Assembly (NCBI RefSeq): GCF_001427825.1
Contig: NZ_LMGT01000001.1
Location: 186,001-250,000 of the forward strand
DNA: 64,000 nucleotides
Source: Brevundimonas sp. Root608
Lineage (GTDB): Bacteria > Pseudomonadota > Alphaproteobacteria > Caulobacterales > Caulobacteraceae
Direction of reading: 5' to 3'
The notes under the pieces were generated by a model. The model saw nothing but the letters and a program-made list of their open reading frames with translations, ran no database searches and had not been told where the DNA came from. Each line of letters begins with the position of its first letter. Positions within the stretch are counted from its first letter, which is position 1. Made by a program: the position numbers and the translations under genes. Below are positions 2,120 to 61,281 of the stretch, piece after piece.

Positions 2120-2845
2120 TCAGCGCCCCACCGCGTGCAGCGCCGGTCCGTTGTCGCGCAGCCACTTCCTGAACGGCCGGTGGTCCCCGACCAGCCGCTG
2201 CACCACCGACCAGTAGGCCGGGCTGTGGTCGGCGTGGACCAGATGCGCCACCTCATGGGCGGCCAGATAGTCGATCACCGCTGGCGGGGCCATGACCACC
2301 CGCCAGCTGTAGCGGATGCTGCGGTTGTGCGGGCTGCACGAGCCCCAGCGCGATTTCGGATCGGCGATCGACATCCTGACCGGGCGCTGGCCGAGGGTCC
2401 GCAGATGCACGTCGGTGCGGGTCTGCAGCGTGTCCCGCGCCACCCGTTTGAACAGATTCTCGACCCGCCGGGCGAAGGCCTCGCCCTCGCCGCCCGAGGC
2501 GATCAGCGGGCCGTCCCCGTCCTCGGTGAGCCGCGCCGCGCCGGCGCCGCCCGTGGCGACCAGCCGGACCGGCTGGCCGAACAGGTCGATGACCGCCCCC
2601 GGCTCCAGCGGCGTCCCGTGAACCCGCTCGGCCAGACGCTCGCGCATCCACGACGCCTTGGTGCGGGCGAAGGCGACGACGTCGGCCAGCTTGCGTTCGG
2701 ACGGGGCGATCAGCACCGCCTCGCCCGCGCGCGCGTCGATGCGGATCGACAGGCGCCGGGCGCGCGGATTGACCGACAGCCGCGCGGCGACGCCGAGCCG
2801 CTCAGGGCTCTCAGGCGGCAGCCGCTGGCCGTTCCGGTACTGCAC
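2120..2845 (-). CDS. YgjP/SprT-like zinc metallopeptidase-fold protein (DUF45)
   Basis: Cytoplasmic protein of 241 residues. The C-terminal half carries the family signature: RWGSCS, then HEVAH at residues 197-201 as the zinc-binding HExxH, and a further His in HADHSPAYW. Known relatives (E. coli YgjP, DUF45) are predicted metallopeptidases without a firm substrate. The start at 2845 lies inside the 3' end of phaZ (35-bp overlap), so the two are probably co-transcribed. The N-terminal 30 residues are weakly constrained, so a slightly later start is possible. Confidence 0.85.
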   Translation of the reverse strand: MQYRNGQRLPPESPERLGVAARLSVNPRARRLSIRIDARAGEAVLIAPSERKLADVVAFARTKASWMRERLAERVHGTPLEPGAVIDLFGQPVRLVATGGAGAARLTEDGDGPLIASGGEGEAFARRVENLFKRVARDTLQTRTDVHLRTLGQRPVRMSIADPKSRWGSCSPHNRSIRYSWRVVMAPPAVIDYLAAHEVAHLVHADHSPAYWSVVQRLVGDHRPFRKWLRDNGPALHAVGR

Positions 2846-4091
2846 TGATGGCCTCGTGTCTGGCGATGAAGTCGCGCACCGCCGGATAGATGTCGTCGCG
2901 GAACCGGCGGCCGTTGAACACGCCGTAGTGGCCGACCTCGGGATGGACGTACAGCTTGCGCATGTCGTCCGGCAGGCGGGTGCAGATCGTATGCGCCGCC
3001 TGGGTCTGGCCCACGCCCGAGATGTCGTCCCGGGCGCCCTCGACCGTCATCAGGCCGATGTCCGTGATCTTCGTCAGATCGACCTTGCGCCCGCGATGCT
3101 CCAGCAGGCCGCGCGGCAGCAGATGCTGCTGGAAGACGATGTCGATGGTCTGGAGATAGAACTCCTCGGTCAGGTCCAGCACCGACAGGTATTCGTTGTA
3201 GAATTCCTCGTGCTTCTCGACCCCGTCCCCGTCGCCGTTGACGAGGTGCTGGAAATACTCGTGGTGGGCGTCGCGGTGGCGGTCCTCGTTCATCGACATG
3301 AAGCTGTAGAGCTGGACAAAGCCCGGATAGACCCGCCGTCCGAACCCCGGATAGGGCCAGGGCGTCGTGTGGATCATGTTCGATTTGAACCAGGCGAAGG
3401 GCTTTTCCTCGGCCAGTTCGTTGGTCACCGTCGGCGACAGGCGCGCATCGATCGGCGAGCCCATGAAGGTCATGGAGGCCGGACGATTGGGGTCCTCGTC
3501 CTCGGCCATCAGGGCGCAGGCGGCCAGCACCGGCGGGCCCGGCTGGCAGACGCCGACGACGTGGGCGCGCGGGCCGATCACGCCCAGCATGGTCCGGACG
3601 TGGTCGATATAGTCGAAGAAGTCGAACCGCCCCTCCAGCATCGGCACCTGACGGGCGTTGACCCAGTCGGTGACATAGACGTCGTGGTCCTGCAGGAAGC
3701 CCTCGACCGTGCCGCGCAACAGGGTGGCGTAGTGGCCCGACAGCGGCGCCACGATCAGCACCGCCGGCGCCGTGGCCGGCTTGCCGGCCCGCTTCACATC
3801 GCCGATGTGCCGCGCGAACCGCACCAGTCTGCACCACGGCGAGGACCAGACGACCTGTTCGGTGGTCCGCACGTCCTTGCCCGCGACCGTGATGGTCTCC
3901 AGACCCCAGGCGGGCTTGCCGTAGCGGCGCGTCACGCTCTCGAACAGCTCGGCCGAGGCGAAGGCCGTGCGGCCCAGCGCGGTGTCCGCGGCCGGATTGA
4001 ACGGAGAACTCCAGAACTGGCGGGCCATCTGGGCCCCGAACCGGAACGGCGTCGCCGAGTGATAGGCGAGCTCGTGAAGCGAATAGAGCAT
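2811..4091 (-). CDS. phaZ: Intracellular polyhydroxyalkanoate (PHB) depolymerase
   Basis: Predicted to hydrolyse stored polyhydroxybutyrate granules in the cytoplasm. The 426-residue product begins MLYSLHELAYHS, the usual start of this family; an upstream extension to 4148 is in frame but unlikely. The nucleophile motif is GVCQPG, with Cys in place of Ser as in the Ralstonia PhaZa1 type, and a PEVGHYGVFNGRRF motif near the C-terminus supplies the catalytic His region. It indicates a carbon-storage polymer cycle; no synthase is in the window. The 3' end overlaps the YgjP-like gene. Confidence 0.92.
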   Translation of the reverse strand: MLYSLHELAYHSATPFRFGAQMARQFWSSPFNPAADTALGRTAFASAELFESVTRRYGKPAWGLETITVAGKDVRTTEQVVWSSPWCRLVRFARHIGDVKRAGKPATAPAVLIVAPLSGHYATLLRGTVEGFLQDHDVYVTDWVNARQVPMLEGRFDFFDYIDHVRTMLGVIGPRAHVVGVCQPGPPVLAACALMAEDEDPNRPASMTFMGSPIDARLSPTVTNELAEEKPFAWFKSNMIHTTPWPYPGFGRRVYPGFVQLYSFMSMNEDRHRDAHHEYFQHLVNGDGDGVEKHEEFYNEYLSVLDLTEEFYLQTIDIVFQQHLLPRGLLEHRGRKVDLTKITDIGLMTVEGARDDISGVGQTQAAHTICTRLPDDMRKLYVHPEVGHYGVFNGRRFRDDIYPAVRDFIARHEAISAVPERPAAAA

Positions 4092-4175: not shown

Positions 4176-4286
4176 TCTCCCTCCCCTTCATGGGGAGGGT
4201 GGCCGCGGAGCGGCCGGGTGGGGAACTCCAGCCACACCCCACCCTGTCGTCGCTTCGCGCCGACATCCCCATGAAGGGGAGGGAGA
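4176..4286. repeat. Cloverleaf palindromic intergenic element, copy A
   Basis: 111-bp element closed by a perfect 20-bp inverted repeat (4176-4195 with 4267-4286). Inside are three further stem-loops: GGCCGC-GGA-GCGGCC (4201-4215), GGGTGGGG/CCCCACCC (4216-4223 with 4237-4244) and an 8-bp stem with one mismatch around TTC (4246-4264). A homologous copy lies at 59939-60053 with the same layout. It sits upstream of phaZ and downstream of the SCO1 gene, both minus strand. Confidence 0.85.
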
Positions 4287-4292
4287 CGTGTC

Positions 4293-4916
4293 CTACCCGC
4301 GCGCCATGGCCCGTTCGATCACCTGCGCGGAGCGCTGCGGTCCCAGGTCGTGGGCGAGGGCGCTGCGGAACCTTCCGTCCGGCCCCATCAGATAGACGGT
4401 CAGCGAGTGGTTCATGGTGTAGCCCTCGCCCTCTCCGACCTTCTGATAATAGGCGCGATAGACGTCCGCGGCCGCCTTCACCTGGTCCGGCGTGCCCGTC
4501 AGGCCGATGACCCCCTGCGGGAAGCCGTCGGAGGACAGATAGTCCTTCAGGGCCTGCGGGGTGTCGCGTTCGGGATCGACGGTGATGAAGACGATCTGCA
4601 CGTCCTTCGCCCTGTCGCCCAGCTGCCGCTTCGTCGCCTCCAGCGCCGTCAGGGTCGTCGGGCAGAAATCGGGGCAATAGGTAAAGCCGAAGAAGACCAG
4701 CGACCATTTCCCGTCCAGCATCGTCTGGTCGACCGTCCGCCCGTCCTGGTCGACCAGCTGGAACGGCCCGCCGACCGACGGCTGGCCGGTCGAGGTCTCC
4801 ATGGACGGGACCGCCCCGTCGCGCCGGTTGACCACCACGATCGTCGTCACGGCCAGGGCGACGGCGATGGCGATGCAGGCGCCGGCGAACAGAAGGATGG
4901 AACGGCGTGGCATCAT
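4293..4916 (-). CDS. senC: SCO1/SenC family copper-binding protein
   Basis: Membrane-anchored periplasmic thioredoxin-fold protein of 207 residues, expected to help copper insertion into cytochrome c oxidase or to act in redox sensing. An N-terminal transmembrane helix (about residues 6-27) precedes the Sco fold. The copper ligands are visible: CPDFC in GFTYCPDFCP and the distal His in TMNHSLTVYL. Two adjacent ATG codons (4916 and 4913) are possible starts. The gene is divergent from regB with about 50 bp between starts, an association seen in Rhodobacter and other alphaproteobacteria. Confidence 0.93.
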   Translation of the reverse strand: MMPRRSILLFAGACIAIAVALAVTTIVVVNRRDGAVPSMETSTGQPSVGGPFQLVDQDGRTVDQTMLDGKWSLVFFGFTYCPDFCPTTLTALEATKRQLGDRAKDVQIVFITVDPERDTPQALKDYLSSDGFPQGVIGLTGTPDQVKAAADVYRAYYQKVGEGEGYTMNHSLTVYLMGPDGRFRSALAHDLGPQRSAQVIERAMARG

Positions 4917-4955
4917 GGCCCTCTCGAAAACGCGCACGCCCGCGCGCGACCGGTC

Positions 4956-17152: not shown

Positions 17153-17177
17153 GCGCTTCGCCGGTCTGAAATGACGA

Positions 17178-17207
17178 AGGGCGGCTCCCTCCGGAGCCGC
17201 CCTTTTT
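17178..17207 (+). terminator. Rho-independent terminator after the GlsB-like gene
   Basis: GGGCGGCTCC-CTCC-GGAGCCGCCC followed by TTTTT. The stem and left flank (ACGAAGGGCGGCTCC) recur in the terminator at 17818. Confidence 0.93.
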
Positions 17208-17368
17208 CCATGGCGAGACGGCGGGAGACGCCGTCGGTCCTGCGTCGACTCGACCCTTTCGGCGATCACGGTGCGGGTGAGGAGGAATCTCCGGCGCGCT
17301 CAAGCGATGTCGACTTAGCGTCTTGAACGTTAACCCCTTTTTTGCTCGCTTCGCTTCAGTCTCAGCCC

Positions 17369-17743: not shown

Positions 17744-17817
17744 TCTGGAAACCGCGCAGGGCGACGCCCAACAGGAGTTTGGCTTTCGCCCGCCTCTGAC
17801 CCATCCGAAACGACGAA

Positions 17818-17847
17818 GGGCGGCTCCGTGCGGAGCCGCCCTTTTTT
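17818..17847 (+). terminator. Rho-independent terminator, near-copy of the one at 17178
   Basis: GGGCGGCTCC-GTGC-GGAGCCGCCC then six T. It has the same 10-bp stem and the same left flank as the terminator 640 bp upstream. Confidence 0.93.
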
Positions 17848-17865
17848 CTTGCCTCGATCCCGGGA

Positions 17866-18456
17866 TCAGGCGCCGGGCTTGTTCGGCTTCTGGCCTTCGC
17901 CGGGGGCCGGCGTGGCGCCGTGGTGACCCGAATGATCCGGGCTGGCCGGCGTCGCGGGGGTGGCCGGAGTGGCCGGCGTGGCGGGCGTCACGCCCGGGTT
18001 CGCCGGCGTCGCCGGGGTAGCGGGGGTCGCCGGCGTCGCCGGCTCGGATGCAGCCTCTTCAGTCGGTTCGGCGGCCGGTTCGTCGACCGGCGTCGCCGCA
18101 TCCTCGATCGCGGCGGCGGCGGCGAACTGGGCGCTGGTCCAGCCCACGGCGACGCCGGCGCCGTCCTGGCGCACGCCGCCGGACACCGGAACGCCGCGCA
18201 GCTCGCCATCGGCGCCGCGCACGGTCAGCTCCTGGCCGGATTCCGTATTGCGGGCGCCTTCAAGCTTGCCCAGCAGCGCGCCGTCGGAACCCTTGACGTC
18301 GGATCCGGGCTGAAGGGTCAGGTTCTGCGTCGGCGCGGGGGCGGCCTGTTCGGCGGCCGGGGCCGGGGTTTGCGGGGCCGTGCTGTCCTGGGCGAACGCG
18401 GGAGCGGTCATGAGGAACAGGCCGGCGACGCCAGTGAGGAGCGCGGTCTTTCGCAT
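17866..18456 (-). CDS. Exported Ala/Thr/Pro-repeat protein
   Basis: 196 residues with a signal peptide cleaved near APAFA (about residue 22). A compact middle segment (LQPGSDVKGSDGALLGKLEGARN...) resembles a PRC-barrel-like strand set. The C-terminal third is an unstructured repeat of ATP triplets (ATPATPATPATPANPGVTPATPATPA) and ends in a His-containing tail (DHSGHHG). It is probably periplasmic or cell-wall spanning. Function unknown. The start at 18456 fits the signal peptide; the ATG at 18474 adds six polar residues. Confidence 0.8.
   Translation of the reverse strand: MRKTALLTGVAGLFLMTAPAFAQDSTAPQTPAPAAEQAAPAPTQNLTLQPGSDVKGSDGALLGKLEGARNTESGQELTVRGADGELRGVPVSGGVRQDGAGVAVGWTSAQFAAAAAIEDAATPVDEPAAEPTEEAASEPATPATPATPATPANPGVTPATPATPATPATPASPDHSGHHGATPAPGEGQKPNKPGA
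17942..18044. repeat. Coding tandem repeat (9-bp Ala-Thr-Pro units)
   Basis: Imperfect 9-bp direct repeats of the GCCGGCGTC/GCGGGGGTG type, interrupted once at about 17992-18002, inside the exported-protein gene. Likely variable in copy number between strains. Confidence 0.8.
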
Positions 18457-59938: not shown

Positions 59939-60053
59939 CTCTCCCCCCCCCGAAGTGGGAGGTGGTCGCGCAGCGACCGGGTGGGGAATTCCAGACGTAC
60001 CCCACCCTGTCGCCGCTTCGCGCCGACATCCCTCCCCATGAAGGGGAGGGAGA
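59939..60053. repeat. Cloverleaf palindromic intergenic element, copy B
   Basis: Homologue of 4176-4286. Internal hairpins: GGTCGC-GCA-GCGACC (same position as GGCCGC/GCGGCC in copy A, with a compensatory C-G to T-A pair), GGGTGGGG/CCCCACCC identical, and GTCGCCGC-TTC-GCGCCGAC. The outer stem is imperfect on the left side. It lies between dnaA and dnaN. Confidence 0.85.
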
Positions 60054-60162: not shown

Positions 60163-61281
60163 ATGCAACTGACCATCGAACGATCCGCGCTCCTCAAGGC
60201 CCTCGGGCACGTGCAGAGCGTCGTCGAGCGCAGGAACACCATCCCCATCCTGTCCAACGTCCTGCTCAGCGCCGGACGCGACAAGCTGGCCTTCGCCGCC
60301 ACCGATCTGGACATGGAGATGGTCGACGAGGCCGAGGCCCAGGTGAATGTCGAGGGCCAGATCACCGCCCCGGCCCACACCCTGTACGAGATCGTGCGCA
60401 AGCTGCCCGACGGCGCCGAGGTCTCCCTGTCCTACAACGGCGACGACCCCCGCCTGGTGGTCCAGGCCGGCCGTTCGAAATTCAACCTGCCGGTCCTGCC
60501 GGCGGGCGATTTCCCGGTCATGTCGACCGACACCTCGGGCACGCGCTTCACCCTGCCCAAGGAAGACCTGGCCCGGCTGATCGACAAGACCCGCTTCGCC
60601 GTCTCGACGGAAGAGACCCGCTACTATCTGAACGGCCTCTACCTCCACACCGTGGCCGAGGCCGGCATCCCGCTGCTGCGCGCCGTCGCCACCGACGGCC
60701 ACCGCCTGGCCCTGGCCGAGACGCCCGCGCCCGAAGGCGCCGCCGGCGGCCCCGGCGTCATCGTCCCGCGCAAGACCATCGACCAGGTCCGCCGCCTGCT
60801 CGACGACGGCTCCGGCCCGGTCGAGGTCATGGTCAGCCCGCAGAAGATCCGCTTCGAATTCGGCCAGGCCAGCCTGACCTCCAAGGTCATCGACGGCGCC
60901 TTCCCCGACTACATGCGCGTCATTCCCAAGGGGAACGACAAACAGGCCGACATCGACAACGCCCTGTTCGCCCAGGCTGTCGACCGCGTCGCCACCATCT
61001 CCGCTGAAAAGAGCCGGTCGGTGAAACTGGCCTTCGACCTCGACCGCGTCACCCTGACGGTGCGCAACATGGAGGCCGGGCAGGGGGTGGAAGAGGTCGA
61101 GATCGGCTATTCCGAAGAGCCCTTCGAGATCGGCTTCAACGCCCGCTATCTGCTCGACGTCGCCGGCCAGATCACCGGCGAGACCGCCCACTTCAAATTC
61201 GCCGACCCGGCCTCGCCCACGCTCGTCCTCGATCCGGGCGATCCGGGCGTGCAGTATGTGCTGATGCCGCTGCGGGTGTGA
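60163..61281 (+). CDS. dnaN: DNA polymerase III sliding clamp (beta subunit)
   Basis: 372-residue ring clamp. QLTIERSALLKALGHVQSVVERRNTIPILSNVLL at the start, KPxx-type loops such as TRFAVSTEETRYYLNGLYL, and the C-terminal [10 protein letters not shown] fully match the family. It follows dnaA with an intervening palindrome; the 3' end overlaps the small membrane protein gene. Confidence 0.97.
   Translation: MQLTIERSALLKALGHVQSVVERRNTIPILSNVLLSAGRDKLAFAATDLDMEMVDEAEAQVNVEGQITAPAHTLYEIVRKLPDGAEVSLSYNGDDPRLVVQAGRSKFNLPVLPAGDFPVMSTDTSGTRFTLPKEDLARLIDKTRFAVSTEETRYYLNGLYLHTVAEAGIPLLRAVATDGHRLALAETPAPEGAAGGPGVIVPRKTIDQVRRLLDDGSGPVEVMVSPQKIRFEFGQASLTSKVIDGAFPDYMRVIPKGNDKQADIDNALFAQAVDRVATISAEKSRSVKLAFDLDRVTLTVRNMEAGQGVEEVEIGYSEEPFEIGFNARYLLDVAGQITGETAHFKFADPASPTLVLDPGDPGVQYVLMPLRV

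Follow-up and report, generated by a model that had tools for sequence, protein, structure and literature searches.

Our analysis of Brevundimonas sp. Root608 identified a family of palindromic repeats in which two inner hairpins are retained as shapes while their letters change. The family numbers about 32 members in the 2.79-Mb, 11-contig genome, and two of these, copies A and B, lie in the 64,000-nt stretch of DNA that was analysed (the window). It is multi-copy, modular and patchy between species. Its copies sit 3-14 nt past stop codons, and at orthologous sites elements come and go while their interiors invert or get exchanged. Based on these observations, we consider it probable that the family is a non-autonomous, dispersed palindromic element of the REPIN/BIME kind that lacks a REP-associated tyrosine transposase (RAYT), spreads as folded DNA and is kept mostly behind stop codons as a 3′-UTR stem-loop. 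Short palindromic repeats are common, and this family offers clean handles on how those that have no RAYT may spread.

Copies A and B and the layout of the family

Both starting copies were confirmed base by base (Table 1). As the preliminary description had stated, copy A is closed by a perfect stem and contains three hairpins; the stem measures 21 bp (4176-4196 with 4266-4286), and the hairpins are two small ones, H1 and H2, plus the GGGTGGGG/CCCCACCC stem. Copy B had been given the same layout. Its modules are indeed the same, but its outer stem is imperfect.

Table 1. Coordinates in the window of copies A and B, their parts and the neighbouring genes.
Feature	Position	Strand	Remarks
Copy A, whole	4176-4286		Position confirmed base by base
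Copy A, left arm	4176..4199	+	TCTCCCTCCCC-TTCAT-GGGGAGGG; 8-bp hairpin by itself, pairs also with right arm
Copy A, H1	4200..4215	+	TGGCCGCGGAGCGGCC, loop GGA; covariation family-wide
Copy A, GGGTGGGG block	4216..4223	+	
Copy A, variable middle	4224..4236	+	13 nt (other copies: 12-41 nt)
Copy A, CCCCACCC block	4237..4244	+	Complement of GGGTGGGG
Copy A, H2	4245..4265	+	TGTCGTCGCTTCGCGCCGACA; loop GAA on - strand
Copy A, right arm	4266..4286	+	4 nt short of usual CCCTCCCC
Copy B, whole	59940-60053		Position confirmed base by base
Copy B, left arm	59940..59962	+	Imperfect
Copy B, H1	59963..59978	+	TGGTCGCGCAGCGACC, loop GCA
Copy B, GGGTGGGG - middle - CCCCACCC	59979..60007	+	
Copy B, H2	60008..60028	+	
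Copy B, right arm	60029..60053	+	TCCCTCCCC-ATGAA-GGGGAGGGAGA
SCO1/SenC gene	4293..4937	-	Stop codon 6 nt from copy A
phaZ (PHB depolymerase C-terminus)	2811..4091	-	Downstream of copy A; start uncertain, open frame to 4148
dnaA	58489..59928	+	Stop codon 11 nt from copy B; start uncertain, open frame from 58342
dnaN	60163..61281	+	Downstream of copy B

Genome-wide counts rest on DNA and covariance-model searches of the genome. The DNA search returned 73 matching pieces, which on parsing resolved into about 30 full copies sharing the order TCTCCCTCCCC-loop-GGGGAGGG, H1, GGGTGGGG, variable middle (12-41 nt), CCCCACCC, H2 and CCCTCCCC-loop-GGGGAGGGAGA. A full element is one unit in an inverted pair, reading from a C/G-rich arm through a small hairpin, GGGTGGGG and the variable middle into the mirror image. 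A lone 27-nt arm palindrome with no interior (L038:1480-1506) is probably what was left after interior loss. Sister subfamilies show the same layout with other arm letters, namely CCTTCCCC/GGGGAAGG and GGAGGGGG/CCCCCTCC (L003:162-317, L095, L287 and L265).

Compared with dinucleotide shuffles, both copies fold much more strongly. On the plus strand, RNA folding gave z scores of -9.7 for copy A and -4.5 for copy B; DNA folding gave -8.8 and -4.7, respectively, and -9.1 and -5.8 on the minus strand. The cloverleaf that had been proposed as the fold is the predicted minimum for the minus strand of copy A, while the predicted minimum for its plus strand is a single long imperfect hairpin with no cloverleaf. 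Because pairing between H1 and H2 is possible as well, folding energy alone does not tell two local hairpins from a single long one; covariation does. The outline had also been called tRNA-like, without a tRNA signature. No Rfam covariance model, tRNA included, matched the element, and we regard the outline as incidental.

Inner hairpins keep their shape and arms keep their letters

Within the genome, the inner hairpins have many stem sequences and a C-GNA-G loop in 56 of 62 cases. A pattern scan of named genomes was performed with the G/C skeleton fixed and the hairpin stretch left unconstrained; the unconstrained stretches were nearly all hairpins, with differing stems. Twenty distinct 16-nt hairpins from many genera were then compared cell by cell. 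All 120 cells were paired (119 Watson-Crick and one G-U), against 60.5% in shuffles, and five of the six stem positions vary on both sides. Double changes occupied 41 cells, compared with 12.8 in shuffles, and the covariation score was 0.92, against 0.18 for shuffled sets and at most 0.14 when the partner was slid. Hairpin halves formed 5.95 Watson-Crick pairs of six with their own partners and 3.37 when halves were swapped. The GNA loop was present in all 20. Because these units, each counted with equal weight, come from different genera, the covariation does not rest on one lineage. A folded-structure constraint on the two inner hairpins is strongly supported. The exchange first noticed between the starting copies, GGCCGC/GCGGCC in A against GGTCGC/GCGACC in B with both sides changed and pairing kept, was confirmed base by base. 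In five loci (L016, L020, L021, L023 and L027), where stems are not fully Watson-Crick, GA commonly stands opposite GA; such tandem G-A pairs are known to be stable in both DNA and RNA.

The arms and the GGGTGGGG/CCCCACCC stem behave differently. Among 30 copies from this genome and 45 from the genus, 62 cells in these parts depart from the consensus and none is compensated; in every one the pair is broken or a wobble is left. Only seven of 30 copies have matching left and right arm loops; the long, unbroken outer stem therefore belongs to copy A and does not characterise the family. Copies were gathered by skeleton similarity, which biases the arms and middle stem towards conservation but not, where a cell has changed, towards lack of compensation. 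A pairing constraint on the outer stem or the GGGTGGGG/CCCCACCC middle stem is not supported, and covariation supports only the two inner hairpins. The early suggestion of selection on a folded structure is therefore borne out for the inner hairpins and is not supported for the outer and middle stems. The test set beforehand, which weighed stem-breaking against stem-keeping changes in additional copies, divides in the same way: the hairpins pass it and the outer stem does not. The family separates sharply the parts that are conserved as letters from those conserved as shape only.

Placement behind stop codons

Distances to stop codons rest on gene calls made from codon usage, with the window as training set. 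Twenty-four of 30 intergenic copies begin 3-14 nt past a stop codon, with 9 nt the commonest distance, whereas uniform intergenic insertion would put 6.3% within 14 nt of a stop (binomial P about 6e-24). Copies A and B had been said to lie in unrelated contexts; this proved wrong, as both share the position just past a stop (A 6 nt past SCO1 and B 11 nt past dnaA). Between convergent genes the element can occupy the whole gap, leaving fewer than 11 nt on each side, and the same placement behind stop codons was seen in relatives within the genus. Orientation relative to the gene is mixed, and the asymmetric hairpins are found in both directions.

Two copies lie in frame inside terminase large-subunit genes (L015:1502-1623 and L032:1464-1603). 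The two genes differ, yet the element stands at the same place in both, between the ATPase and nuclease domains; in a related genome, G385, the terminase site has no element. In E. coli, translation is reported to be reduced where a REP lies within 15 nt of a stop codon (PMC12306157, in a passage citing earlier work). By analogy with that report, a regulatory role at the mRNA 3′ end is plausible for our element, which is presumably transcribed and may affect the mRNA.

Turnover at orthologous sites

G385 is the closest available relative, about 90% identical, and its dnaA slot has near-identical flanks on both sides of a different interior in which the asymmetric hairpins are reversed. More distant species have other interiors in this slot, a sister subfamily (with GGAGGGG for GGGTGGGG), unrelated long inverted repeats or a short hairpin. 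At the SCO1 slot, G385 has the element with its interior inverted. This slot is empty in G012, G002, G363 and others, which indicates that the element is not required there; it holds an arm-only palindrome in G350 and G014 and a sister subfamily in G045. The arm-only palindromes L269 and L274, which stand at the SCO1 slot, look like scars of interior loss, since full elements occupy the slot in other genomes. When orthologous sites were compared between this genome and G385, about four had the same interior, about three an inverted one and about three another interior, and one further site had the sister subfamily in G385. With sites empty, arm-only, inverted or filled by other palindromes, the elements evidently turn over, as mobile or recombining repeats typically do. 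Between species, each site can be followed for gain, loss and inversion, and the position behind stops is narrow.

A MITE would have terminal inverted repeats flanked by a target-site duplication. The element has inverted arms, and exact duplications were sought at the orthologous sites; none was evident at these sites, where flanks have diverged or both species are occupied, and no strain-level empty site was found among the closest available relatives, which differ by about 10%. We propose that the element transposes.

Relation to known repeats and their transposases

The preliminary description had proposed a link to a REP-associated tyrosine transposase, and our searches contradict it. No RAYT gene (Y1_Tnp, PF01797) was found in this genome, although control searches of E. 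coli and Caulobacter vibrioides were positive. Y1_Tnp matches occurred in one of 41 genus genomes, and in five of 26 high-copy Caulobacteraceae genomes compared with one of 16 zero-copy genomes. A RAYT as a general requirement for the element was thus rejected, being missing here and in most high-copy relatives.

REPINs are inverted REP doublets, and RAYT transposases are the leading hypothesis for their mover (PMC3116915). Like them, our element consists of two inverted palindromic units and a spacer, is dispersed and extragenic, can fold as a single hairpin and is patchy between genomes. A feature of RAYT systems is a GT[AG]G tetranucleotide at the 5′ foot of the unit hairpin (PMC6006769). 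This is absent from our element, whose units start with TCTCCCTCCCC and have GTGG only inside GGGTGGGG, 3′ of the hairpin; it differs also in that its C/G-rich arms are fixed and its inner hairpins vary freely. The CGTC-tagged REPs (PMC3733652) are comparable as palindromic repeats without a dedicated transposase, but our arms read TCTCCCTCCCC/GGGGAGGGAGA and the two-unit pattern contains GGGTGGGG. The CIR elements of Caulobacter (Chen and Shapiro 2003, as summarized in the review PMC10969869) are likewise intergenic inverted repeats of more than 100 bp in the same family. They are described as associated with CcrM (GANTC) sites. Our 30 copies contain one GANTC in 3745 nt, against 1.19 per kb in the window, and membership of CIR by its CcrM site was rejected.

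The rhizobial RIME/ABC elements are palindromic mosaics of about 100 bp in Alphaproteobacteria, and by general description our element resembles them in size, form and host class. Palindromic elements of Rickettsia can lie in frame within protein genes; the two terminase copies recall them, although nearly all copies here are intergenic. Taken together, we class the family with the REP/REPIN kind: its layout and behaviour are REPIN-like, but two defining features of the RAYT system that were tested are absent. An earlier description outside open-licence papers is possible.

Distribution across genomes and phyla

A covariance model built from copies of this genome matched 60 of 61 genus genomes; in the wider family it matched 60 of 80 genomes, in 20 of 22 genera. 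Copies per genome ranged from 0 to more than 40, sometimes inside one genus, and the same element is present in named Brevundimonas records. A short pattern, GGGGAGGG-N12..26-GGGTGGGG, was multi-copy in all 15 genomes tested, while its reversed form gave zero matches in each of the 15. Counts were 206 in Nostoc favosum, 118 in Enterovirga, 80 in Phenylobacterium, 78 in Caulobacter, 44 in Bradyrhizobium and 24 in Westiellopsis. As the 15 genomes were picked for already holding one match, these figures demonstrate multiplicity and not prevalence. A longer exact pattern was found in four of 289 genomes in an even sample of the class.

The cyanobacterial repeats have the same G/C skeleton, with CCCCACCC mostly upstream of the arm, an arrangement in which a three-way junction is closed by GGGTGGGG (L120, L139, L160, L174, L177, L181, L195, L197, L290 and L306); in proteobacterial copies CCCCACCC is mostly downstream. 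Skeleton conservation outside the genus is in part imposed by the search pattern. The Nostoc heptamer repeats (PMC4692102) were considered as the same repeat and rejected, their sequence being different. One G-rich skeleton recurring across phyla calls for an explanation, either a recogniser or a structural reason shared among them. It is conceivable, if rather unlikely, that CCCTCCCC-loop-GGGGAGGG-[any GNA-type hairpin]-GGGTGGGG serves as one skeleton for dispersed families in at least two phyla (Alphaproteobacteria and cyanobacteria), moved without a RAYT by shared machinery that would read both shape (the hairpin) and letters (the G-runs, possibly as a quadruplex-duplex hybrid).

Proposed mechanism and alternative explanations

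In the reading we prefer, a RAYT-less mobile element, the repeat would spread as folded single-stranded or cruciform DNA, and a putative enzyme would recognise the hairpin shape together with the fixed G/C skeleton. Interiors would be reshuffled by gene conversion and by recombination through the arms, processes that can account for inverted and exchanged interiors but not for spread to new sites. Copies may survive mostly just behind stop codons because they do little harm there. They might even be useful there, with a strong stem-loop at the mRNA 3′ end, beside the terminating ribosome, that could protect this end, damp read-through or slow termination.

The order could be the reverse, with functional 3′ elements (terminators or stabilisers of the mRNA 3′ end) placed by selection and mobility only secondary. 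The very tight placement behind stops and between convergent genes speaks for this, as do the reported effect of stop-proximal REPs on E. coli translation, so far as PMC12306157 relays it, and the unrelated long inverted repeats that take the same slot past dnaA in other species. Read directly, however, the sequence has no T-run beyond either end of copy A or copy B on either strand, and they are therefore not textbook intrinsic terminators; together with the SCO1 slot that is empty in several relatives and the two in-frame copies, this makes selection-first placement rather unlikely. A small structured RNA, tRNA-like or regulatory, encoded at each site would account for the strong folding and covariation. 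Against it, no Rfam family matched, orientation to the gene is not fixed, the asymmetric hairpins occurring either way round, and covariation is confined to the two small hairpins; we think such an RNA highly improbable.

Two further explanations concern why the hairpins pair. Replication template switching (quasipalindrome correction) could copy one hairpin side onto the other, so that pairing would be neither selected nor recognised. Double changes in perfect palindromes can arise in this way, and the exchange and inversion of interiors between copies indicate that recombination is active. Such mending should reach the arms and middle stem too, yet none of their 62 changed cells is compensated, and correction leaves a GNA loop with a free middle base unexplained; we judge this account improbable. 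Alternatively, GGGG-A-GGG-[hairpin]-GGG-T-GGGG may fold into a G-quadruplex in which a single A and a single T each form a loop and the covarying hairpin forms the central one; the C-rich complements would then be just the other strand or a competing fold. Judged from its letters, the element has what a stem-loop G-quadruplex requires, with four G-runs of at least three and a duplex loop. A quadruplex would suit a skeleton fixed as letters around a hairpin fixed as shape alone, and a skeleton that is multi-copy in Alphaproteobacteria and cyanobacteria with no reversed-pattern matches in any genome tested. But each G-run has a C-run complement within the element, and CCCTCCCC lies upstream in 41 of 42 matches to a pattern not requiring it. 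Pairing explains why CCCCACCC stands downstream in most proteobacterial copies and upstream in most cyanobacterial ones, whereas a quadruplex needs no CCCCACCC at all. Sister variants carry GGGGAAGG or GGAGGGGG, and the part that the search pattern plays in skeleton conservation beyond the genus weighs here as well. We therefore regard a quadruplex as quite unlikely.

Other inverted repeats

In many relatives (e.g. L101, L102, L103, L105 and L117) the unrelated long inverted repeats of the dnaA-dnaN gap are built of heptamer-like units such as GGGCTTAGGG/CCCTAAGCCC, and several of these carry a DnaA-box-like TTATCCACA in the loop. Elsewhere in the window, two terminator-like copies of GGGCGGCTCC-loop-GGAGCCGCCCTTTTT lie 639 nt apart, at 17165-17242 and 17804-17881.
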